A stretch of 64,000 bases of DNA from Eggerthellales bacterium. Lineage in GTDB: Bacteria; Actinomycetota; Coriobacteriia; Coriobacteriales; Eggerthellaceae. The stretch spans positions 62,001 through 126,000 of the forward strand of contig JAQXVU010000052.1 in assembly GCA_029225085.1 (NCBI GenBank), written 5' to 3'. A model generated the notes under the pieces. The model saw only the letters and a list, made by a program, of their open reading frames with translations, had not been told where the DNA came from and searched no databases. A program made the position numbers and the translations under genes. Of this stretch, positions 40,950 to 52,876 are shown piece by piece; positions within the stretch are counted from its first letter, which is position 1, and every line of letters starts with the position of its first letter.

Positions 40950-41828
40950 TTATCCCTGATTGCTCGAGGTATCGTCATCTGATTTACCTGCGTCATTGGA
41001 AAAGACCACCATGACCTCTTCCATAACTTGGGCAGCATCATTGGGAGCCACCACAATGGTGCGCTCAGTGGTGTCAGCACCCTGATCGACGCGAACAACC
41101 GTGCCAACCATGAGGCCCGCATAGTAGCTTCCTCCCAAACCGGAGGTCACCACCACGTCGCCGACCTTCACCGACACATCGGAGCTGACATCCTCGAGGT
41201 ACAGCAAGCCCTCGAGGCTACCGCGAACCACGCCCTGAGCGCGGCTCGATTGAATCTTCACCGCAGCACCGCTATTAGGGTCCTGCAGCAGACGAACATC
41301 GCAGGAATAGGAGCTCACTCGCTGAACCTGACCGACCACGCCGGAGCTTCCCATTACGGGCATGCCTGCCTCAATGCCGTCGGCAGAGCCCTTGTCGAGG
41401 GTGATCATCCTGTTCCACGCATCAGTAGACTGACCGATGACACGGCAGGTCAGAGTGTCGAGGCTATAGGTATCCTTGATCTTCTGCAGCTCCTCGAGGC
41501 GCTGGGCTTCCTGTCGGTACTCCTCGAGGTTAGAGACCATCTCGCGCAGTTCCTGGTTCTGCTTCTTCAGCTCGGAGATGGTGTCTGCGTCGGCGCCGAT
41601 ATCATCGACGCTGCTCATGATGCCGTTGCCCAAGGAGCCAACCGCAGAGCCGGCCATCTTCAGAGGAGAGACCAAGCCGGAAACGGTGCGCTGCATGCTG
41701 TGAAGGCCGCCGTCCTCCCCCTCGTTGGAGTACAAGGACATGCAGCCGATGGATACCACCAGAAATACAATCAGCAGCACATGGCTGCCGATTGCAGGAC
41801 CTTTATTTTTAGAACCGAACTGGGCCAT
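40950..41828 (-). CDS. mreC: rod shape-determining protein MreC
   Basis: A 292-residue bitopic membrane protein. One N-terminal span (HVLLIVFLVVSIGCMSLY) is followed by a coiled coil (ISELKKQNQELREMVSNLE) and the two beta-barrel domains of MreC (SGVVGQVQRVSSYSCDVRLL and KVGDVVVTSGLGG). It acts outside the cytoplasm, organising PBP2. It follows mreB by only 3 nt and precedes mreD by 12 nt. The C-terminal tail is Asp/Ser-rich and presumably disordered. Confidence 0.94.
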   Translation of the reverse strand: MAQFGSKNKGPAIGSHVLLIVFLVVSIGCMSLYSNEGEDGGLHSMQRTVSGLVSPLKMAGSAVGSLGNGIMSSVDDIGADADTISELKKQNQELREMVSNLEEYRQEAQRLEELQKIKDTYSLDTLTCRVIGQSTDAWNRMITLDKGSADGIEAGMPVMGSSGVVGQVQRVSSYSCDVRLLQDPNSGAAVKIQSSRAQGVVRGSLEGLLYLEDVSSDVSVKVGDVVVTSGLGGSYYAGLMVGTVVRVDQGADTTERTIVVAPNDAAQVMEEVMVVFSNDAGKSDDDTSSNQG

Positions 41829-41831
41829 ACA

Positions 41832-42893
41832 CTACTTAGAACGCATGGTGGTCTGACGCAAGGTGGTGGGAGACTCCAGCACCTTCAGGCAGCCCATGAC
41901 CACGTTGGTCAGAGCGGTCTCGGACACCCATACGGGAATCTCGAGCTCCTGAGTCAGATAACGGTCGAGACCGGAAAGCAGTCCGCCACCGCCCGTGAGG
42001 AGGATACCGTTCTTGATGATGTCGGAGGCCAAGTCAGGATTGGTCTTCTTGAAGGTCTCCTTGATGTTCAGCACCATCTCATCGATGGTGGGCTGCAGAG
42101 CCCTGCGCACATCCTCGGACTGCACAGTTACCTCGCGAGGCTGCTCATCTACCACGTCCTGGCCGGAAATGACCATATCGCGCTCGCGGCCATCTTCAAA
42201 GGGAAGAATGGAGCCGATCTTGATCTTGATGACCTCGGCGGTGCGCTCACCGATCTTGATGCCCAGCAGGTCACGCAGGTACAGAGCAATGGCCTCATCC
42301 ATGCGGTTGCCAGCAACGCGCAGAGAGGAAGAGGTCACGATACCGCCCAAGGACACAACGGCCACCTCGGTGGTACCGCCACCGATATCGATGACCATAG
42401 AGCCGGTGGGCTCGGTAACGGGCAGGTCGGCGCCCATTGCCGCTGCCATGGGCTCTTCGATCAGATAGGCCTGACGAGCGCCAGCCTGAATGGTTGCCTC
42501 GAACACGGCGCGTTTCTCGACGGAAGTTGCGCCGCAGGGAATGCACACCACGATACGGGGCTTGGGCTGCCAGGGATACTTGCGCTGAACGGCCTTGTTG
42601 ATGAAGGCCGCGATCATAGCTTCGGTTACGTCGTAATCGGCGATGACGCCGTCATGCAGAGGATGCTCAGCGGAGAACGCATCTGGAGTGTGGTTGATCA
42701 TGTTCTTCGCTTCGCGACCAACTGCCAGAACCCTCGTCGTGCTCTTTTCGATAGCAACAACGGAGGGCTCGTTGATGACGATGCCCTCGCCAGATACGGC
42801 GACCAGCGTATTGGCGGTGCCAAGGTCGATGGCCATATCGTAGGATGCGCCGAATCCACCCAGGTTGAAGTTGAAGTTATCTAAAAAAGACAT
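41832..42893 (-). CDS. mreB: cell shape-determining actin homologue MreB
   Basis: A 353-residue bacterial actin that forms membrane-bound filaments guiding cell-wall synthesis. Phosphate 1 motif IDLGTANTLV near residue 22, phosphate 2 VIDIGGGTTEVAV near 167, and the adenosine motif LLTGGGGLL near 295 are intact. AAAGGATA precedes the ATG, and a promoter with TAGAAT lies 35 bp upstream. First gene of the mreBCD-mrdA-rodA operon; its presence predicts rod-like or short-rod cells. Confidence 0.97.
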   Translation of the reverse strand: MSFLDNFNFNLGGFGASYDMAIDLGTANTLVAVSGEGIVINEPSVVAIEKSTTRVLAVGREAKNMINHTPDAFSAEHPLHDGVIADYDVTEAMIAAFINKAVQRKYPWQPKPRIVVCIPCGATSVEKRAVFEATIQAGARQAYLIEEPMAAAMGADLPVTEPTGSMVIDIGGGTTEVAVVSLGGIVTSSSLRVAGNRMDEAIALYLRDLLGIKIGERTAEVIKIKIGSILPFEDGRERDMVISGQDVVDEQPREVTVQSEDVRRALQPTIDEMVLNIKETFKKTNPDLASDIIKNGILLTGGGGLLSGLDRYLTQELEIPVWVSETALTNVVMGCLKVLESPTTLRQTTMRSK

Positions 42894-42946: not shown

Positions 42947-42987
42947 CAAACAAAACCGACGCTCCGTGAAATTCACAGGAGCGTCGG
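42947..42987 (-). terminator. intrinsic terminator of the ilv-serA-leuA cluster
   Basis: CCGACGCTCC GTGAA / TTCAC GGAGCGTCGG pair with one bulged base to form a 15-bp stem, followed on the minus strand by TTTTGTTTG. It separates leuA from the mre promoter. Confidence 0.93.
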
Positions 42988-43034
42988 ATTCAGACAATGG
43001 CTCTGAACTGCAAGGAGGCTACCCTATCGCAGGA

Positions 43035-44567
43035 TTAGCGCTCCTTAGAGGTGGCAGCGCGCAGCAGCCTGTTAAGGGCGTGCAGGTAAGCCTTGGTGGA
43101 AGAGACGATGATGTCGGAGTCAGCACCGCGACCGGTGAAGACCTCGCCGTCAGCGTCGGTAACGCGGATGGAAACCTCGCCAAGGGCGTCGATACCGCGG
43201 GTTACGCTCTGAACGGCGAACTCGGTCAGGTCGTTCTCGACGTCGACGATCTGGTTCACAGCCTTGTATACGGCATCAACAGGGCCGGTGCCCACGGAGC
43301 AGGCAACGTGCTCTACGCCGTTAGCGTCGAGCAGGGTGACGGTTGCAGTGGGGATCAGAGGATCGCCGCAGGAGATCTGCACGGATTTCAGGGTATACAG
43401 GGCCTCCTGGCCACGGCTGTCCTCGCCCACCAGGGACTCCAGGTCCTCGTCGTAGACCTCCTTCTTCTTATCGGCAAGAAGCAGGAACTTGTCGTACATG
43501 CGGTCGAGGTCAGCGCCCTCGAAGTGATAGCCCAGCAGGTCGAGGCGCATCTTCAGAGCGGCACGGCCGGAACGGGCGGACAGCACGATCTCGGACTTGC
43601 CAGCGCCAACCTCTGCAGGATCGATGATCTCGTAGGTGGAGCGCTCCTTGATAACGCCATCCTGATGGATGCCGGAGGAGTGAGCGAAGGCGTTGGCGCC
43701 AACGATAGACTTGTTAGGAGCAACCACAAAGCCGGTGATGTTGGAAACCAGGCGGGAAGCCCTCATGATCTCCTTGGTGTTGATGTCGGTGTAAGCGTCG
43801 AGCTCCTCACCGTGCATCTTGATGCCCATGACGACCTCTTCGAGAGCGGTGTTACCAGCGCGCTCACCCAGGCCATTAATGGTGCACTCGAGCTGGGTAG
43901 CGCCATTGGCAACGCCAGCCAGGGACAGTGCGGTAGCCATGCCCAGGTCGTTGTGGCAGTGAACGGAAACGGTGACGTTCTCGATGCCGCGAACGTGCTC
44001 CATCAGGTACTTGATGCGACGGCCGTACTCGTCAGGCAGAGAGTAGCCGGTGGTGTCTGGGATGTTCACGACGGTAGCGCCGGCCTCGATGACGGCCTGC
44101 ACCACCTTTGCCAGGAACTCGTATTCGGAGCGGCCGGCGTCCTCGCAGTAGAACTGCACGTCGCTGGTGTAACGCTTAGCGTACTTAACGGCGTCGACGG
44201 CACGCTCGAGGCACTGCTCCTCGGTGATGCGCAGCTTGTCCCTCATGTGGCTAGGGGAAACGCCGATACCGGTCTGAATACGAGGATACTTTGCGACCTT
44301 CAGGCACTCGCCTGCGGAGTCGATGTCCTTGTGGACTGCGCGGGTGAGGCCCACGACGGTAGCGTTGTCGCCAACCTCGCGAGCGATGGCCTGTACGCTG
44401 GCGAAGTCGCCGGGAGAGGACACTGGGAAGCCAGCCTCAATGACGTCGACGTTCAGGCGAAGAAGCTGACGGGTGATCTCCAACTTCTCGGCGGTGTTCA
44501 TAGATGCGCCGGGCGACTGCTCGCCATCGCGCAAAGTGGTGTCGAAGATCTGAATCTTACGCGCCAT
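43035..44567 (-). CDS. leuA: 2-isopropylmalate synthase
   Basis: Condenses acetyl-CoA and 2-ketoisovalerate, the first leucine step. A 510-residue LeuA of the bacterial long type. [13 protein letters not shown] near residue 8 (metal and substrate residues) leads to EAGFPVSS and HCHNDLGMA (metal histidines). [13 protein letters not shown] and the C-terminal regulatory domain follow (from about 390, ending [20 protein letters not shown]). AAAGGGG precedes the ATG. Last gene of the cluster. The following leucine genes (leuB, leuC, leuD) are not in the window. Confidence 0.95.
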
Positions 44568-44658
44568 GTGCGTACCCCTTTCATTCTCATCATGTCAGCG
44601 CCCGAAAGCGCCCTATCTTGCTAATTCAGTCGTTCACCGACAATTTCTGCCAGCGAGA

Positions 44659-46236
44659 TTACAGTTTAATATACCAAAGGTTCTTTGGGTTGATTTTTGC
44701 CCGAAGCTCCTGAAGTACTTGAGCAGGAACATCCTGCTGCACGTTCATGTACACCAAGGCCATGTCGCTGAAGGCCTTCTTGGCAATCTGCATGGTGTTA
44801 ATAGAGACGCCCGCGTTGCCCAGCACCGTGCCGATGATGCCCATGCGGCCAGGACCGTCTACGTACTCGAAGATCAGCGTGCGACCCGTCGCATCAATCT
44901 GGGTGCGATAGCCCAGCAATTCCACAATACGAGGCTGTTGATCGTCGCCGGAGACCGTGCAGGAAACCGTGAGACCGTCAGCGTTCACGCTCACCTTCGA
45001 GCTGTACTCGTCGGACTCCCCCACCAGGAACGTCTGCAGATCGACGCCGTGACGACGAGCCACGGAGAAAGCGTCAGCTGGGGTGACGCGCTTGTTGCCA
45101 CGATAGGACAGCATGCCGTCCATAACGCCGGCAGCCAGAACATCCAGATCCTTATCGGCCAGGGTGCCCGCCGCAGTGAGCTTCAGCTTCGCAGGGAGCT
45201 CGCCTCGCATCTGCAGGGCCATAGAGCCCAGAATCTGACAAGCGGGGATGTACGAAGTTGCGGTATCAACTACGTCGTCGGCAGAAGCCACGATGTTCAG
45301 AGCCGTGGGAACCAAAGAGCCGGACAGGCCCAGATACACGTACTCGGCAATCTGCACACCGGCCCTGTTCAGGGCCTCCTTGGTGGAAGCGCCCAGATGA
45401 GGGGTGAGAGTTGCCTGATCGAACTCGTGCAGGGGGCTGTCGGAAACGGGCTCGGACATCCACATGTCAACGCCAACTGCGGCGATCTTGCCAGCCGCCA
45501 CGAAGTCGGACAGGGACTTGATGTCGTACACGCCGGCGCATGCTGCGTTCAGAAGGATGACGCCATCCTTCATCTTCGAGAACTCCTCGGGGCCGAACAT
45601 GCCCTGGGTCTCGGGGGTCTTGGGCATGTGCACGGTGATGAAGTCGGCGATGGGAAGGATGTCATCGATGGAATCGTAGAGCCTGACACCGATCTGCTCT
45701 GCGCGGTCTGCGGCGCAGTAGGGGTCGTAGGCCACGATGTCCATGCCGAAGGCACGGGCGCGCTCTGCAACCAGACGGCCCACGCGGCCCAAACCGCAAA
45801 TAGCCAAGGTCTTCTGGTACAGCTCAGTGCCCACGAAGTCGTTGCGACGCCACTCCCCCGCCTTCATAGACTTATCAGCAGCGGCGATATTGCGAGCGCA
45901 GGCCAGCAGAAGGGCCATGGTGTGCTCGGCAGCTGACACGATGTTGGAGGTAGGTGCGTTGCATACGATGACGCCTCGCTCGGTGGCGGCGGCGATATCG
46001 ATGTTGTCGACGGTGACGCCGGCCCTGCCCACGACCTTCAGGTTCTTACCCGCATCGAGCAGCTCCGCGTCGACCTTCGTCGCGCTGCGAACCACCAATG
46101 CGTCGTACTCTCCGATGATGTCGATGAGCTGGTCGCGAGAAAGGCCGAGCCTCACATCCACGGCGAGGCCCCGCTCACGCAGGGCCTCGACACCAGCATC
46201 GGCAATCTTTTCACTAACAAGCACTTTGTTGCTCAT
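44659..46236 (-). CDS. serA: D-3-phosphoglycerate dehydrogenase-like protein with altered active site
   Basis: A 525-residue long-form SerA: N-terminal substrate domain, Rossmann NAD domain (CGLGRVGRLVAE near residue 152), intervening domain, and C-terminal ACT domain from about 450 (EYVDGPGRMGIIGTVLGNAG), a likely serine-sensing site. RNDFVGTELY and the catalytic HLGAST histidine are present, as is the Glu in SEPVSDSP. The segment normally reading N-C-A-R-G-G is NAACAGVYD, so the substrate-binding arginine is cysteine 233 (codon 45540-45538). It lies between ilvC and leuA in one direction. SerA is the best name, but the substrate may differ. Confidence 0.85.
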   Translation of the reverse strand: MSNKVLVSEKIADAGVEALRERGLAVDVRLGLSRDQLIDIIGEYDALVVRSATKVDAELLDAGKNLKVVGRAGVTVDNIDIAAATERGVIVCNAPTSNIVSAAEHTMALLLACARNIAAADKSMKAGEWRRNDFVGTELYQKTLAICGLGRVGRLVAERARAFGMDIVAYDPYCAADRAEQIGVRLYDSIDDILPIADFITVHMPKTPETQGMFGPEEFSKMKDGVILLNAACAGVYDIKSLSDFVAAGKIAAVGVDMWMSEPVSDSPLHEFDQATLTPHLGASTKEALNRAGVQIAEYVYLGLSGSLVPTALNIVASADDVVDTATSYIPACQILGSMALQMRGELPAKLKLTAAGTLADKDLDVLAAGVMDGMLSYRGNKRVTPADAFSVARRHGVDLQTFLVGESDEYSSKVSVNADGLTVSCTVSGDDQQPRIVELLGYRTQIDATGRTLIFEYVDGPGRMGIIGTVLGNAGVSINTMQIAKKAFSDMALVYMNVQQDVPAQVLQELRAKINPKNLWYIKL

Positions 46237-46272: not shown

Positions 46273-47268
46273 CTATTTCTTGATCCAGGTGAACATAGAG
46301 CGGATCTTCTTGCCGGTCTGCTCGATGAGCAGGTTGTCGCAAGCCTCACGCTGCTCCAGGAGCCACTTGTGGTCGTTGTTGCAGTCCTCAACGAACTCCT
46401 TGGCGAACTCGCCGTTCTGAATGCGCTCGAGGATGAGCTTCATGGCAGCACGGGACTCGTCGTTGATGACCTTAGGACCAGCGTAGTACTCGCCGTACTC
46501 AGCGGTGTTGGAGATGGAGTAGTTCATGAAGCTGATGCCGGACTCGTACATGAGGTCGACGATCATCTTCAGCTCGTGATACACCTCGAAGTAAGCCAGC
46601 TCTGGTGGGTAACCGCCCTCTACCAGAGTGTCGAAGCCAGCCTTAACCAGCTCTACGCAGCCGCCGCAGAGAACAGCCTGCTCGCCGAAGAGGTCCTCCT
46701 CGGTCTCCTGAGCGAAGGTGCCCAGCATGATGCCGGTACGAGCACCGCCAACGCCCCAAGCATAGGACTTAGCGGTATCCCAAGCATGACCGGAAGCGTC
46801 CTGATGCACGCAGATCAGATCGGGAACACCGGAGCCCTCGGTGAACTGACGACGAACGATGTGACCAGGGCCCTTAGGAGCGCACATGATGACGTCGACG
46901 TCTGCAGGAGGAACGATGTAGCCGTAGTGAATGTTGAAGCCATGAGCGAATGCCAGGGTATCTCCAGCGTTCAGGTTAGGAGCAATGAACTCCTCGTATA
47001 CAGCTGGCTGCTTCTCGTCTGGAACGAGAATCATGATCAGATCTGCCTCCTTAGCAGCCTGATCCATGGTGGTGACCTTCAGACCAGCTTCCTCAGCCTT
47101 AGCCCAGGAAGAGGAACCCTCGCGAAGACCAACGCGAACGTCGCAGCCGGAATCCTTCAGGTTCAGTGCGTGAGCGTGACCCTGAGAGCCGTAGCCGATG
47201 ATGGCGATCTTCTTGCTCTGGATGATTGATGGGTCAACATCCTTCTCATATACGATTTCGATAGCCAT
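46273..47268 (-). CDS. ilvC: ketol-acid reductoisomerase
   Basis: Isomerises and reduces acetolactate or acetohydroxybutyrate in valine/isoleucine synthesis. A class I enzyme of 331 residues: [15 protein letters not shown] near residue 24, REGSSSW (an NADPH-type phosphate loop), [13 protein letters not shown], the metal-binding region [24 protein letters not shown] (split in two parts) and [21 protein letters not shown] precedes the ATG. It has its own promoter (47340-47368) between ilvN and ilvC, so it can be expressed apart from the ilvD leader. Confidence 0.97.
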
Positions 47269-47390: not shown

Positions 47391-47885
47391 CTAGTTATCA
47401 GTGGCCTTCATGCTGCGAGGCATGGCGATGGTGCCGGTGCGGGTGAGCTCCTTGATACCGTAGCCGCGCAAGAGGTTCAGGATACCGCGAAGCTTGTTCT
47501 CGGTGCCAGTGACCTCGATGGTGATGGAGTTCTTGCCCACATCGACGATCTTGGCGCGGAACACCGTAGCGATCTCGATGACCTCATTGCGGCGCTCGGG
47601 AGCGGCGGCAACCTTAATGAGCACCAGCTCGCGGTTAACCACGGACTCATCGGTGAGGTCGGTGATCTTGTGCACGCTCACCAGCTTATGCAGCTGCTTG
47701 GTGATCTGCTCGTAGGCCACCTCGTCAGCCTCGATGACCGCCGTCAGACGAGAGAGGCTCTCATCCTCGGTCTGGCCAACGGACAGGGATTCGATATTGA
47801 AGCCCCGGCGGGAGATCAGACCGGTGACGCGGCTCAGCACGCCCGGCTTGTTCTCTACCAGAGCGGAAAGAATGTGCTTGCTCAT
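47391..47885 (-). CDS. ilvN: acetolactate synthase small (regulatory) subunit
   Basis: A 164-residue regulatory subunit (IlvN/IlvH type) that binds valine and stimulates IlvB. The N-terminal ACT domain contains LVENKPGVLSRVTGLISRRGFNIESLSVG. A second domain (RELVLIKVAAAPERRNEVIEI, then GIKELTRTG) completes the long-type small subunit. It starts 3 nt after the ilvB stop. Valine feedback control of the holoenzyme is expected. Confidence 0.96.
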   Translation of the reverse strand: MSKHILSALVENKPGVLSRVTGLISRRGFNIESLSVGQTEDESLSRLTAVIEADEVAYEQITKQLHKLVSVHKITDLTDESVVNRELVLIKVAAAPERRNEVIEIATVFRAKIVDVGKNSITIEVTGTENKLRGILNLLRGYGIKELTRTGTIAMPRSMKATDN

Positions 47886-47888
47886 TGC

Positions 47889-49748
47889 TTACTCCTTCCC
47901 TCCGGTGAGCATCTCGGAGATATCTCCCACGCTCACTGCTCCGATAATGTCGTCGATGGCAGCGCCAGGAGCCACCATGGGGAATACGTTCTCCGCAGGG
48001 CAGATGCGCATATCCAGCAGGGCGGGACCCTCGGCAGCCAAAAGGCGCTTCAGGGCACCTTCCAGCTCATTGGGGTCGCGAACCCCCTCGGCCTGCCAGT
48101 AATAGGCCTCGGCCAGCTTCACGAAATCGGGGTTCTCATCGAGGATGGTGTTAGAGAACCTGTTGTCGTAGAAGAGGTTCTGCCACTGATGCACCATGCC
48201 CAGGGTGCGGTTGTCCATGAGCAGGACCTTCACGTTGAAGCCGTTGATGGCGCAGGTGGCCATCTCCTGAGCGCACATCTGGAAGGAGCCATCGCCGGAG
48301 ATGCACACCACCGTCTTCTCAGGGAAGGCCGCAGCGGCACCCATGGCGGCAGGAAGGCCGAAGCCCATGGTGCCGGCACCACCAGAGGACAGGAAGGTGC
48401 GGGACAGCTCGCGGTGAATGTGCTGAGCGGCCCACATCTGATGCTGGCCTACGTCGGTGACTACGATAGACTCCATCGGATCGAGCATGTCGGACAGCAG
48501 CTCAAGGGAGCCCTCAGGGGAGATCCAGCGAACGCCGTTCTTCTCGCAGGGGTTGCCGCAGATGCCGCAGCCAGCGTCGAACTCAGAGGTCAGGCCTGGG
48601 TTGTAAAAGGGGTGAGCCTCCTTCCAGGCGAAGATGGTGTCGAGCCACTCCTGGTAAGCGGGCTTCAGGCCCTGCTTCTTGGCCTCGGCCACCAGGTTGG
48701 CCATGATGCCCTTGGCGTCGCCAACGATGGGCACGTCTACCGCACGGTTCTTAGAAATCTCCGCAGGGTCAACATCGATGTGAATGACCTTGGCGTTAGG
48801 GGCGAAGGAATCGATCTTGCCGGTAACGCGATCGGAGAAGCGAGCGCCCACCGCGATGAGCAGGTCGCACTCGGTCATGGTGTAGTTGGCGTACATAGAG
48901 CCATGCATGCCCACAGGACCCAGGTTCATGGGGTTCGAGCAAGGAATGGCGCCCTTGGCCATAAGGGTGGTGACCACGGGGACCTGCATCATGTCCACGA
49001 ACTCCAGGAGTTCCTGGGTTGCATCAGCAGCGATGCAGCCACCGCCTACGTACAGCAGGGGCTTCTTGGCCTGCTTCAGCAGGGACACGGCCTGACGGAC
49101 CTGCTTGGCGTTGCCCTTCACCGTAGGACGATAGGAGGCCATCTCCGTAGAGTCGGGGTAATGGAACTCGATGTCGGCGGTGAAGATATCCGAAGGGATA
49201 TCGATGAGCACCGGGCCGGGACGACCGGTAGAGGCAATGTAGAAGGCCTCGCGAACGGTGCGGGTCAGATCCTCAGGATCCTGCAGCAGGTAGCTGTGCT
49301 TCACGATGGGCATGGTGATGCCCACGATGTCTACCTCCTGGAAGGCATCGGTGCCGATGGCGCGACGAGGCACCTGGCCGGTAATGACCACCATGGGGAT
49401 GCTGTCGGCATAGGCAGTGGCGATGCCGGTGACCGTGTTGGTGGCACCAGGGCCAGAGGTCACGATGACCACGCCAGGCTTGCCGGTGGCACGGGCATAG
49501 CCGTCAGCAGCATGGGTTGCACCCTGCTCGTGACGGGTAAGCACGTGCTTCAAAATCTTAGAGTCATACAGGGCGTCATAAATCTTGATGGCCTGTCCTC
49601 CCGGATAGCCGAAGATCATCTCTACGCCCTCAGCCTCGAGGGATGCGATGAGGGCCTGAGCGCCAGTCATCACCTTTCCCTCTTTTTCGGTATGGCTACC
49701 GTACTTGGGCATACCCTTCTCAGGCATGACGGTTTCCTTTCCACTCAT
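47889..49748 (-). CDS. ilvB: acetolactate synthase large (catalytic) subunit
   Basis: Thiamine-diphosphate enzyme making acetolactate and acetohydroxybutyrate, with FAD. A 619-residue protein. FGYPGGQAIKIYDAL and the catalytic glutamate in LTRHEQGATHAADGYAR are near the N-terminus, and SGPGATNTVTGIATAY and the ThDP motif GDGSFQMCAQEMATCAING follow. Two starts are possible: ATG 49748, which overlaps the ilvD stop as TAATG, or ATG 49670 (MTGAQAL) preceded by AAAGGTG; the shorter one matches the family length better. Confidence 0.96.
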   Translation of the reverse strand: MSGKETVMPEKGMPKYGSHTEKEGKVMTGAQALIASLEAEGVEMIFGYPGGQAIKIYDALYDSKILKHVLTRHEQGATHAADGYARATGKPGVVIVTSGPGATNTVTGIATAYADSIPMVVITGQVPRRAIGTDAFQEVDIVGITMPIVKHSYLLQDPEDLTRTVREAFYIASTGRPGPVLIDIPSDIFTADIEFHYPDSTEMASYRPTVKGNAKQVRQAVSLLKQAKKPLLYVGGGCIAADATQELLEFVDMMQVPVVTTLMAKGAIPCSNPMNLGPVGMHGSMYANYTMTECDLLIAVGARFSDRVTGKIDSFAPNAKVIHIDVDPAEISKNRAVDVPIVGDAKGIMANLVAEAKKQGLKPAYQEWLDTIFAWKEAHPFYNPGLTSEFDAGCGICGNPCEKNGVRWISPEGSLELLSDMLDPMESIVVTDVGQHQMWAAQHIHRELSRTFLSSGGAGTMGFGLPAAMGAAAAFPEKTVVCISGDGSFQMCAQEMATCAINGFNVKVLLMDNRTLGMVHQWQNLFYDNRFSNTILDENPDFVKLAEAYYWQAEGVRDPNELEGALKRLLAAEGPALLDMRICPAENVFPMVAPGAAIDDIIGAVSVGDISEMLTGGKE

Positions 49749-51406
49749 TATCCGAAGTACGCCCCCTCATCAGCGCTGGAAACCAGCTTTGCGTAGCGGG
49801 CGAGAACGCCGGTCTTGTGCTTGGGCTCAGGGGCAGTCCAGGCGGCGCGACGAGCAGCCAGGGTCTCGTCGTCTACTGCCAGCTCCAGCAGGCCCTTGTC
49901 GATGTCGATGTTAATGATGTCGCCTTCCTGTACCAGAGCGATAGGACCGCCAGCAGCTGCCTCAGGGGAAACGTGACCGATAGCAGGACCCTTGGTGGCG
50001 CCGGAGAAGCGACCGTCGGTGATCAGGGCAACGCTCTTATCGAGGCCCATGCCGCAGATAGCAGAGGTAGGAGTCAGCATCTCGCGCATGCCGGGACCGC
50101 CAGCGGGACCCTCATAGCGAATAACGATGACATCGCCAGGGTTGATCTTGCCGCCGAAGATGGCGTCGCAAGCCTCTTCCTCGGACTCGAAGACGCGGGC
50201 GGGACCGGAGTGCTGACGCATCTCGGCGGAAACAGCGCTCTGCTTCACGACGCCGCAGTGAGGAGCCAGGTTGCCCTGCAGAACCTTCAGGCCGCCATTG
50301 GGGCTGTAGGCGTTCTCGACGGTGTGAACGACCTCGCCGTCGACAGGACCCTGAGCAGCCATCCAGTCGGCCAGAGGGCCGTGAACGGTCATGCAGTCGG
50401 TGTCGATGATGCCGTGACGTGCCAGCTCGCCCATGATGGCGCCAACGCCGCCCACCGCGTTCAGATCCTCGATGTGCAGGGAGCCTGCAGGGGCGATGCG
50501 GGTGATGTTGGGGGTCTTAGCGCAAACGTCATCCCAGTCCTGCATAGAGACAGGGCAACCAGCAGCGCGGGAGATGGCGGTCAGGTGCAGCATGGTGTTG
50601 GTGGAACCACCGAAGGCCATATCGACGGCCATGCCGTTGCGGATAGACTTCTCGTTGATGATGTCGAGAGCGGTAATGTTCTTGTTCAGCATGTCCATTA
50701 CCGCCATGCCTGCATGCTTGGCCAAGCGAACGCGCTCGGAGTACACAGCGGGAACGGTGCCGTTACCAGGAAGGGCGATGCCCAGAGCCTCGGACAGGCA
50801 GCAGATGGAGTTAGCGGTGAACATGCCGGAGCAGCTACCGCAAGTGGGGCAAGCGGTGTTCTCGAGGAACTTCAGCTCCTCCTCGGTCATGGTGCCGGCG
50901 GTAACCTGGCCCACGGCGTCGAAGAGGGAGTTCAGGTCGGTCTGGTTGCCGCACTTGTCGTGACCAGCCAGCATAGGGCCGCCGGAAACAAGCACGGTGG
51001 GAAGGTTCAGACGGCAAGCTGCCAGCAACATGCCGGGAACAACCTTGTCGCAGGAAGGGATCAGCACCAGAGCATCGAAGCCATGGCCCTGAACAGCGCA
51101 CTCTACGCTGTCAGCGATGACCTCACGGCTGGTAAGGGAGTAGTGCATGCCCTCATGGTTCATGGCGATGCCGTCGCAGACGCCGATGGTGGTCATCTGG
51201 AAGGGAGTGCCTCCCGCCATGCGAACGCCGGCCTTAACCGCGTCGGCAATGGTCTGCAGATGAATGTGACCGGGGATAACCTCGTTGCCAGAGGAGATAA
51301 CGGCAACGAAGGGGCGCTCCATCTCCTCATCGGTGAGACCGTCAGCCTTCAGCAGGCTGCGGTGAGGCGCACGGGCCAAACCCGTCTTGATCGAATCGCT
51401 TCTCAC
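49748..51406 (-). CDS. ilvD: dihydroxy-acid dehydratase
   Basis: Dehydrates dihydroxyisovalerate and dihydroxymethylvalerate, the step before transamination by IlvE. A 552-residue protein of the IlvD/Edd family with iron-sulfur cysteines in [10 protein letters not shown] and [13 protein letters not shown]. The C-terminal substrate-binding part has [11 protein letters not shown] and [14 protein letters not shown]. The start is GTG 51406 with AGGAAG 6 nt upstream. The apparent longer frame runs through the leader terminator. First gene of the cluster, under the T-box-like leader at 51407-51720. Confidence 0.96.
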
Positions 51407-51720
51407 GTTTCGCTTCCTTTCCTTACGGAACCAGCGACTTCGGAAACAACCCCCTAAAAAAGAAAAACCCGAAGCAAGAAGCCCCGGGACCATCTAAGGG
51501 AGCGAGAAAACGCTCGACTGTTAACGGTTGTCACCGGTTCGGCCTACTTGCCTGCTGGTCTTCCGAAGATCGTCCGGTTCCCATTGCATGCGTTCATCCA
51601 AACTGCTCGGAGGCTTGTTTCTGAATCTTCCCCCGCAGGCTTCCAGAACCGCCTGCTTGCTTGAAGAGGGCCAGACCCTTACTTTTCCTCGTCATCGCAT
51701 TTGTTGGTAGTGATGTCGTG
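51407..51720 (-). ncRNA. T-box leader of the ilvD-B-N-C-serA-leuA cluster (variant core)
   Basis: On the minus strand the roughly 314-nt leader has a GATGACGAGGAAAAGTA start typical of Stem I and a GCAGGCGG...GCCTGC distal hairpin. Just before the terminator it has AGATGGTCCCGGGGC, aligned with the T-box core TGGTACCGCG. UGGU would pair with the ACCA end of tRNA. One core base differs (C for A). The specifier is not resolved; Ile, Val or Leu is expected from the genes. No Ile/Val/Leu-rich leader peptide is seen. Confidence 0.65.
51456..51488 (-). terminator. regulated terminator of the ilvD leader
   Basis: CCCGGGGC-TTCTT-GCTTCGGG (two G-T pairs) is followed by TTTTTCTTTTTT on the minus strand. 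Its 5' arm overlaps the T-box-like core, as expected for antitermination. Confidence 0.85.
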
Positions 51721-51928: not shown

Positions 51929-52876
51929 CTACACCAGATTGATGGGGGCACCGGCCAGATAAGCGGCTACGTTGTCAGCCACGATGACCGCGCGCTTGTA
52001 CATGGCCTCGTTGGAAGCGAAGGCCACATGAGGGGTGGCCACCACGTTCTTAGCGGAAAGCAGTGGGTGATCGGTGGCGATAGGAGGCTCGGTCTCGAAG
52101 ACGTCGATGCCCGCGCCGGCGATGCGGCCCTCGTTCAGAGCGTCGGCAAGGGCGGCGGAGTCTACCACAGGACCACGAGCGCAGTTGATGAGCACCGCAG
52201 TGGGCTTCATGAGAGCAATGCGCTCCGCATTAATGAGGCCGGTGGTCTCAGGAGTCTGGGGAACATGCAGGGAGATCACGTCGCAGGCGCTCATGAGCTC
52301 CTCGATGGTGTCGACGAAGGTGACATCGGGCAAGTCCTTCTTCGTGCGGCTATAGGCCAGAACCTTGCAGCCGAAGGCATTGGCGATGCGGGCAACGCGG
52401 CTTCCGATGGCGCCAGCGCCCACGATGCCGAAGGTCTTGCCTTCCAGCTCAGGGCCTACCAGGCCGGCCTTGGTGCCGCCGCAGCGAACGGCCTTGTCGC
52501 AAGCGACGATGTTGCGATACACCGCCAGCAGAAGGCCGAAGGTCAGATCGGCAACAGCCACTGTGGAATAGCCAGCGCAGTTAGACACGGTGATGCCGTG
52601 CTCGCGGCAATAGGCCATATCCACATGGTCATAGCCAGTGAATGCCACGCAGATGTACTTCAGATTGGGGCACTCCTGCATGACGGCAGCAGAGTACTTG
52701 ATGTTGGAAACGACGACGATGTCAGCGTCCTTGCTGCGCTCGATGAGGGATGCCTCGTCCTCCTTGCGATCGGGATAGGTCACCAGCTCTACATCGAAAT
52801 CCCCTACCGCGTCCCCAATGAGGCCGCGAAGCTGCTCGTCAGAGATGCCCAAAGGCTCTACCACGGAAATCTTCAA
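51929..52876 (-). CDS. D-2-hydroxyacid dehydrogenase (NAD-dependent)
   Basis: A 315-residue D-isomer 2-hydroxyacid dehydrogenase, of the glycerate/hydroxypyruvate and 2-hydroxyisocaproate dehydrogenase type. The NAD loop GIVGAGAIGSRVARIA, the substrate arginine in LINCARGPVVD, the Glu in DVFETEP and the catalytic histidine in TPHVAFAS are all present. The start is TTG 52876, with AGGAG 6 nt upstream. It could make (R)-2-hydroxyacids for the 2-hydroxyacyl-CoA dehydratase encoded at 4-7 kb, but the two are 45 kb apart and the substrate is not known. Confidence 0.87.
   Translation of the reverse strand: MKISVVEPLGISDEQLRGLIGDAVGDFDVELVTYPDRKEDEASLIERSKDADIVVVSNIKYSAAVMQECPNLKYICVAFTGYDHVDMAYCREHGITVSNCAGYSTVAVADLTFGLLLAVYRNIVACDKAVRCGGTKAGLVGPELEGKTFGIVGAGAIGSRVARIANAFGCKVLAYSRTKKDLPDVTFVDTIEELMSACDVISLHVPQTPETTGLINAERIALMKPTAVLINCARGPVVDSAALADALNEGRIAGAGIDVFETEPPIATDHPLLSAKNVVATPHVAFASNEAMYKRAVIVADNVAAYLAGAPINLV

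Follow-up and report, generated by a model that had tools for sequence, protein, structure and literature searches.

The window analysed here, a stretch of 64,000 nucleotides of DNA from an Eggerthellales bacterium, contains a gene recognised as serA, for type I 3-phosphoglycerate dehydrogenase (PGDH), in which the arginine that binds the substrate carboxylate is replaced by cysteine. The question raised by this locus is whether such a protein can still oxidise 3-phosphoglycerate and, if it cannot, why the cell tolerates the change. The open reading frame carries the segment VILLNAACAGVYDIKSL, and the stretch LLNAACAGVYD lies within its translation. The gene and the regions of its product are as follows.

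44659..46236, minus strand: serA, type I 3-phosphoglycerate dehydrogenase, 525 amino acids (open reading frame; TIGR01327, PF02826, PF00389 and PF19304; relative 1YGY)
44659..46236, minus strand: the catalytic, NAD-binding, intervening and ACT-like regions of SerA (profile matches)

The match to TIGR01327 scored 540.1 bits against a cut-off of 454 and extends over residues 4-524, the whole length of the protein. PF19304, representing the intervening (ASB-like) region, also scored above its cut-off. The closest relative of solved structure is the M. tuberculosis SerA, PDB 1YGY. The serA frame is open over 525 codons, with a codon-position composition resembling that of the neighbouring genes, and the source genome (G000; 1.93 Mb in 91 contigs) is of high completeness.

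When SerA was aligned with 1YGY, the NAARGG of the structure aligned with NAACAG, placing residue 233 at the catalytic arginine of D-2-hydroxyacid dehydrogenases. Codon and alignment both agree with the initial annotation, which had placed Cys233 at codon 45540-45538; the codon reads TGC. The active-site positions below were located by alignment.

45538..45540, minus strand: Cys233 codon TGC, replacing the catalytic, substrate-carboxylate-binding Arg
45535..45537, minus strand: Ala234 codon GCC, replacing the Gly directly after the catalytic Arg
45370..45372, minus strand: Leu289 codon CTG, replacing the alpha5-helix Gln that stabilises a phosphate-binding Arg (role of the Gln from PMC6303947)
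45451..45453, minus strand: Glu262, the catalytic Glu, kept
45397..45399, minus strand: His280, the catalytic acid-base, kept
46087..46089, minus strand: Arg50 of the Arg-Ser phosphate-binding motif, kept
45778..45795, minus strand: NAD-binding glycine motif GLGRVG, kept

The catalytic Arg-Glu-His triad is thus incomplete, with Arg233 changed to Cys and both Glu262 and His280 in place. The Arg-Ser phosphate-binding motif containing Arg50 reads VVRSAT, and Arg71, Asn98 and Arg131 are also kept. The ACT domain, like the catalytic Glu and His, had been described at the outset as intact. The two catalytic residues are indeed present. By the TIGR01327 alignment, which covers the region, the ACT domain is intact too, but the Pfam ACT profile (PF01842) scored 19.6 bits there, under its gathering score of 27. 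The C-terminal part of this SerA also has unusual residues of its own, Gln446 and Ala449. The catalytic arginine binds the keto or hydroxyl oxygen and one carboxylate oxygen of the substrate; no other active-site residue of the 2-hydroxyacid dehydrogenase (2HADH) superfamily is as conserved, and it serves all 2-hydroxyacids, not 3-phosphoglycerate alone (PMC6303947). Changing the equivalent arginine of a D-lactate dehydrogenase to alanine sharply lowers activity (PMC4580590).

Conservation of these residues was followed in 97 long SerA sequences from the family (Eggerthellaceae) and its order, 91 of them from the family, and in 104 long SerAs from beyond the family; six order-level sequences sit in both sets, and G000 is the single genome of its genus in the comparison. 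Arg50, Arg71, Arg233, Gly234, Glu262 and His280 were invariant in all 104 outside sequences, among which no active-site loss of the Arg233, His280 or Arg50 kind was observed. Arginine occupies column 233 in 93 of the 97 family and order sequences (87 of 91 within the family), as against 104/104 outside it, and Gly234 is glycine in 78/97 as against 104/104. The arginine is replaced by Cys in G000, Ala in G033, Ser in G161 and Tyr in G091. On a SerA tree from which the active-site columns had been left out, the losses fall on four separate branches, and the sister genome of G000, G153, has Arg233. Since the four replacements share nothing, they point to loss of constraint rather than to one new specificity.

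Cys233 is therefore not fixed among orthologues, arginine being present in G153 and 86 other family members. The initial annotation had held that arginine in all close orthologues would mean a sequence error or a strain variant. Arginine was found in nearly all of them, but that conclusion does not follow, given the Gly234Ala and Gln289Leu changes and the three other losses of Arg233. There is good support for its broader suggestion that this SerA may be something other than an ordinary phosphoglycerate dehydrogenase.

Gln289 is conserved in 93/97 family and order SerAs. The four deviants (G000, G091, G159 and G160) all lack Arg233 or His280 as well, a co-occurrence with a chance of about 2e-5 if sequences are taken as independent; the sequences are in fact related, and represent three separate lineages. 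Among the SerAs from outside the family, five of 104 lack Gln289 and keep an intact triad. A change at Gln289 alone therefore does not mean inactivity, and we use it as supporting evidence only.

Other active-site positions were also found altered in the family. His280 is changed to Arg, giving a TPR motif, in all four g66 genomes and in G161, by two changes on the tree; the loci are G157 (L094), G158 (L091), G159 (L100), G160 (L102) and G161 (L110), and the g66 frames are open. The phosphate-binding Arg50, otherwise invariant in SERA enzymes, is changed to His in eight g6 genomes (G005 (L024), G060-G064, G066 and G067), by one change; the phosphate motif there is HPNT instead of RSAT, and serC and serA are still adjacent. 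Glu262 is Asp in the G033 SerA, and Arg131 varies in g65 and in G161.

The genes around serA bear on the suggestion, made when the locus was first described, that its place between ilvC and leuA might mark a branched-chain 2-hydroxyacid as the substrate.

46273..47268, minus strand: ilvC, upstream of serA, in the run ilvD-ilvB-ilvN-ilvC-serA-leuA (open reading frame, context)
43035..44567, minus strand: leuA, downstream of serA (open reading frame, context)
51929..52876, minus strand: second D-2-hydroxyacid dehydrogenase, with an intact NCARG motif (open reading frame)

The order ilvB-ilvN-ilvC-(serC)-serA-leuA is the usual layout in the family and the order, often with serC directly before serA, and genomes encoding a canonical SerA have it too; in G153, no leuA was found immediately behind serA. 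As the run is common to genomes with canonical SerA beside serC, gene position gives no hint of a branched-chain substrate, and a branched-chain role read from gene order was rejected. The dissimilarity of the four arginine replacements speaks against the same suggestion. The NCARG motif that the initial annotation had noted in the other dehydrogenase was found in its translation. We also considered whether the arginine is lost only once serA has left serC; this is not so, as the Arg-less SerA of G091 adjoins serC. Very long frames on the plus strand of the window (49817-51457, 47670-49796, 41028-42884 and 42966-44624) lie opposite ilvD, ilvB, mreB and leuA; they are probably not genes but a consequence of high third-position G+C.

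Outside the window, G000 encodes a second, short PGDH-like enzyme of 382 amino acids (G000:C85:79056-80201). Orthologues are present in most genomes of the family, some with a C-terminal ACT-like part and some without it. Six residues matching those of the long enzyme are invariant in 90/90 genomes: the Arg of VRSA, the Arg of ARAG, the Asn of GANA, the Arg of NFSR, the Asp of TDF and the His of PHLG. The loop where the catalytic Glu usually lies is shorter in this protein; activity is known for a type IIIK SerA that lacks this Glu (PMC6303947). The short enzyme occurs in two lengths in different genera (L157, L175), about 385 amino acids with the ACT-like tail and about 305 without. A subtype of about 44% identity, with TTHxGAGT for PHLGAST, is encoded directly beside serC at L166 (G033), L174 (G126) and L237 (G130).

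The distribution of serC suggests a connection of both enzymes with the serine pathway. The short gene adjoins serC in eleven genomes. In 29 genomes of the family, serC occurs together with the short gene and no long SerA is encoded; in five, it occurs together with a long SerA and the short gene is absent. This is good evidence from gene context that either enzyme can serve the pathway. A vanished serine pathway was rejected as the cause of the arginine loss, serC being present in G000. No SerB match above the TIGR00338 cut-off was found in 138 family genomes, although serC is common among them, and the phosphoserine phosphatase of the family is therefore probably another HAD-type enzyme; the G000 locus noted in this connection is G000:C61:16801-17253.

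To ask whether active-site loss tracks redundancy, we combined the family with a sample of the phylum, searched both for the short gene and scored six active-site columns of the long SerA. Where the short gene is present, eight active-site changes were found on a tree length of 17.2 (16/85 sequences), against none on a tree length of 32.0 where it is absent (0/95 sequences). If changes were proportional to tree length, the chance of this distribution would be about 2e-4. Within the family, the long SerA is intact in all eight genomes that encode it but have no short gene. A paired phylogenetic test inside the family had too few independent pairs and no power, and the tree-length comparison with the phylum was used instead. 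The short enzyme was not found outside the order in the sampled genomes of the phylum, and the contrast between presence and absence is mostly one between a single family and the rest of the phylum. Another family-wide cause, such as serine supply in the gut, would fit equally well. Redundancy is therefore the likeliest cause of the active-site losses, though not the sole possible one.

Taken together, we consider it probable, at roughly 0.6, that the long SerA of G000 is a redundant enzyme, catalytically crippled or nearly so, and backed up by the short PGDH. Its active site would have been eroded by the changes Arg233 to Cys, Gly234 to Ala and Gln289 to Leu. The protein would probably still fold and bind NAD, and its oxidation of 3-phosphoglycerate would be very poor or nil. 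The short enzyme, judged from gene context, would supply 3-phosphohydroxypyruvate to SerC, and the cell would tolerate the erosion of SerA because it has serC and a short PGDH-like enzyme with intact substrate residues. This backup would have allowed the long SerA of the family to lose catalytic residues repeatedly, with the short one staying invariant. The G000 SerA shows no sign of rapid decay: its branch on the tree measures 0.35, against 0.37 for the Arg-bearing sister. A pseudogene was rejected on the same unlengthened branch and the open frame of 525 codons. Several observations count against this explanation. The catalytic Glu262 and His280 and the NAD site are all in place, and the branch is not a long one; the Arg-less long SerA of G091 still adjoins serC; and the short enzyme, whose activity is deduced from gene context, has a shortened loop at the Glu site.

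The alternative that comes closest is that SerA still works, perhaps more weakly, as a phosphoglycerate dehydrogenase, with the substrate held by the remaining arginines and the cysteine tolerated. In its favour, most of the other substrate-side residues are kept, serC is present and accelerated evolution was not seen. We nevertheless regard this as unlikely, because the arginine does not vary in any of the 104 SerAs from outside the family or of the 90 short enzymes, because Gln289 has gone too, and because mutation of the equivalent arginine strongly cuts activity in a relative (PMC4580590).

A dehydrogenase that has stayed active but acts on a different substrate, such as a branched-chain or another 2-hydroxyacid whose carboxylate is held by other residues, would likewise account for the retention of Glu262, His280 and the NAD motif, for the intact frame with its neighbour-like codon-position composition, and for a rate of evolution no faster than that of the Arg-bearing sister. 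Retention of the phosphate-site residues Arg50, Arg71 and Arg131, however, fits a phosphorylated substrate; the four arginine losses led to four different residues; the ilvC-serA-leuA setting is standard for canonical SerA; and the catalytic arginine serves 2-hydroxyacids of every kind (PMC6303947). This alternative is accordingly a rather improbable one.

Two further possibilities give the long protein a role without catalysis. In the first, which we hold to be doubtful, the long SerA of Eggerthellaceae would repeatedly have become a maintained pseudoenzyme, folded, NAD-binding and serine-sensing, with a regulatory or partner role, while the short PGDH does the chemistry. The second concerns the G000 protein, which would be kept for regulation, either sensing serine through its ACT and intervening regions or forming mixed oligomers with an active enzyme. 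Its C-terminal regions are present. Some support also comes from the g66 genes: pairwise dN/dS among the four genomes, all without the catalytic His, was 0.055 to 0.29, similar to the 0.03 to 0.27 of clades with intact SerA, and the g66 SerA is thus still under purifying selection. (G000 was left out of this calculation, its nearest genome being at 64% identity and synonymous sites near saturation.) Regulation by the G000 SerA is nonetheless quite improbable, as there is no known partner or target, Gln446 and Ala449 are unusual for the C-terminal part, and no link between the long and the short protein emerged from the analysis. Finally, an error of sequencing or assembly, or a variant confined to a single strain, could be entertained for a genus represented by one genome and a CGC to TGC change that is a single transition, and is very hard to credit with three departures (233, 234 and 289) at functionally coupled sites, Arg233 lost in three other lineages, an intact frame and high genome completeness.

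The departure of this SerA from the canonical active site is real and its likely cause, redundancy, would be an ordinary one; its repetition across the family adds to its interest. Four losses of the arginine and two of the catalytic base provide a natural series for the fate of an enzyme once a second enzyme can take over its reaction. The TIGR01327 cut-off is easily passed, and an automatic 'SerA' label is therefore no proof that serine synthesis uses the gene, a point of importance when the metabolism of gut bacteria is modelled. In a search of the open literature, which was not exhaustive, we found no description of a long SerA without this arginine, and nothing relevant on PGDH pseudoenzymes or on serine metabolism in Eggerthella.

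Compared with known systems, the G000 SerA resembles type I 3-phosphoglycerate dehydrogenase (SerA/PHGDH, TIGR01327, 1YGY) in the order and extent of its domains, its catalytic Glu and His, its NAD motif and its phosphate-binding arginines, and differs from it in having Cys for the catalytic Arg, Ala for the next Gly and Leu for the alpha5 Gln. Like the SerA of G153 (64% identity) and those of other Eggerthellaceae, it is of equal length and encoded behind ilvC, in a family where the ilv-serA-leuA run is common. Unlike the SerA of G153 and most Eggerthellaceae, which keep Arg233, it has lost this residue, as G033, G161 and G091 have done separately. Replacement of a triad residue in a recognisable 2-hydroxyacid dehydrogenase has precedents in SERA type IIIK and subfamily X4 (PMC6303947). 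In those proteins it is the His, and the Glu, that is replaced, and type IIIK keeps the Arg, whereas the SerA described here loses the Arg and keeps both His and Glu.
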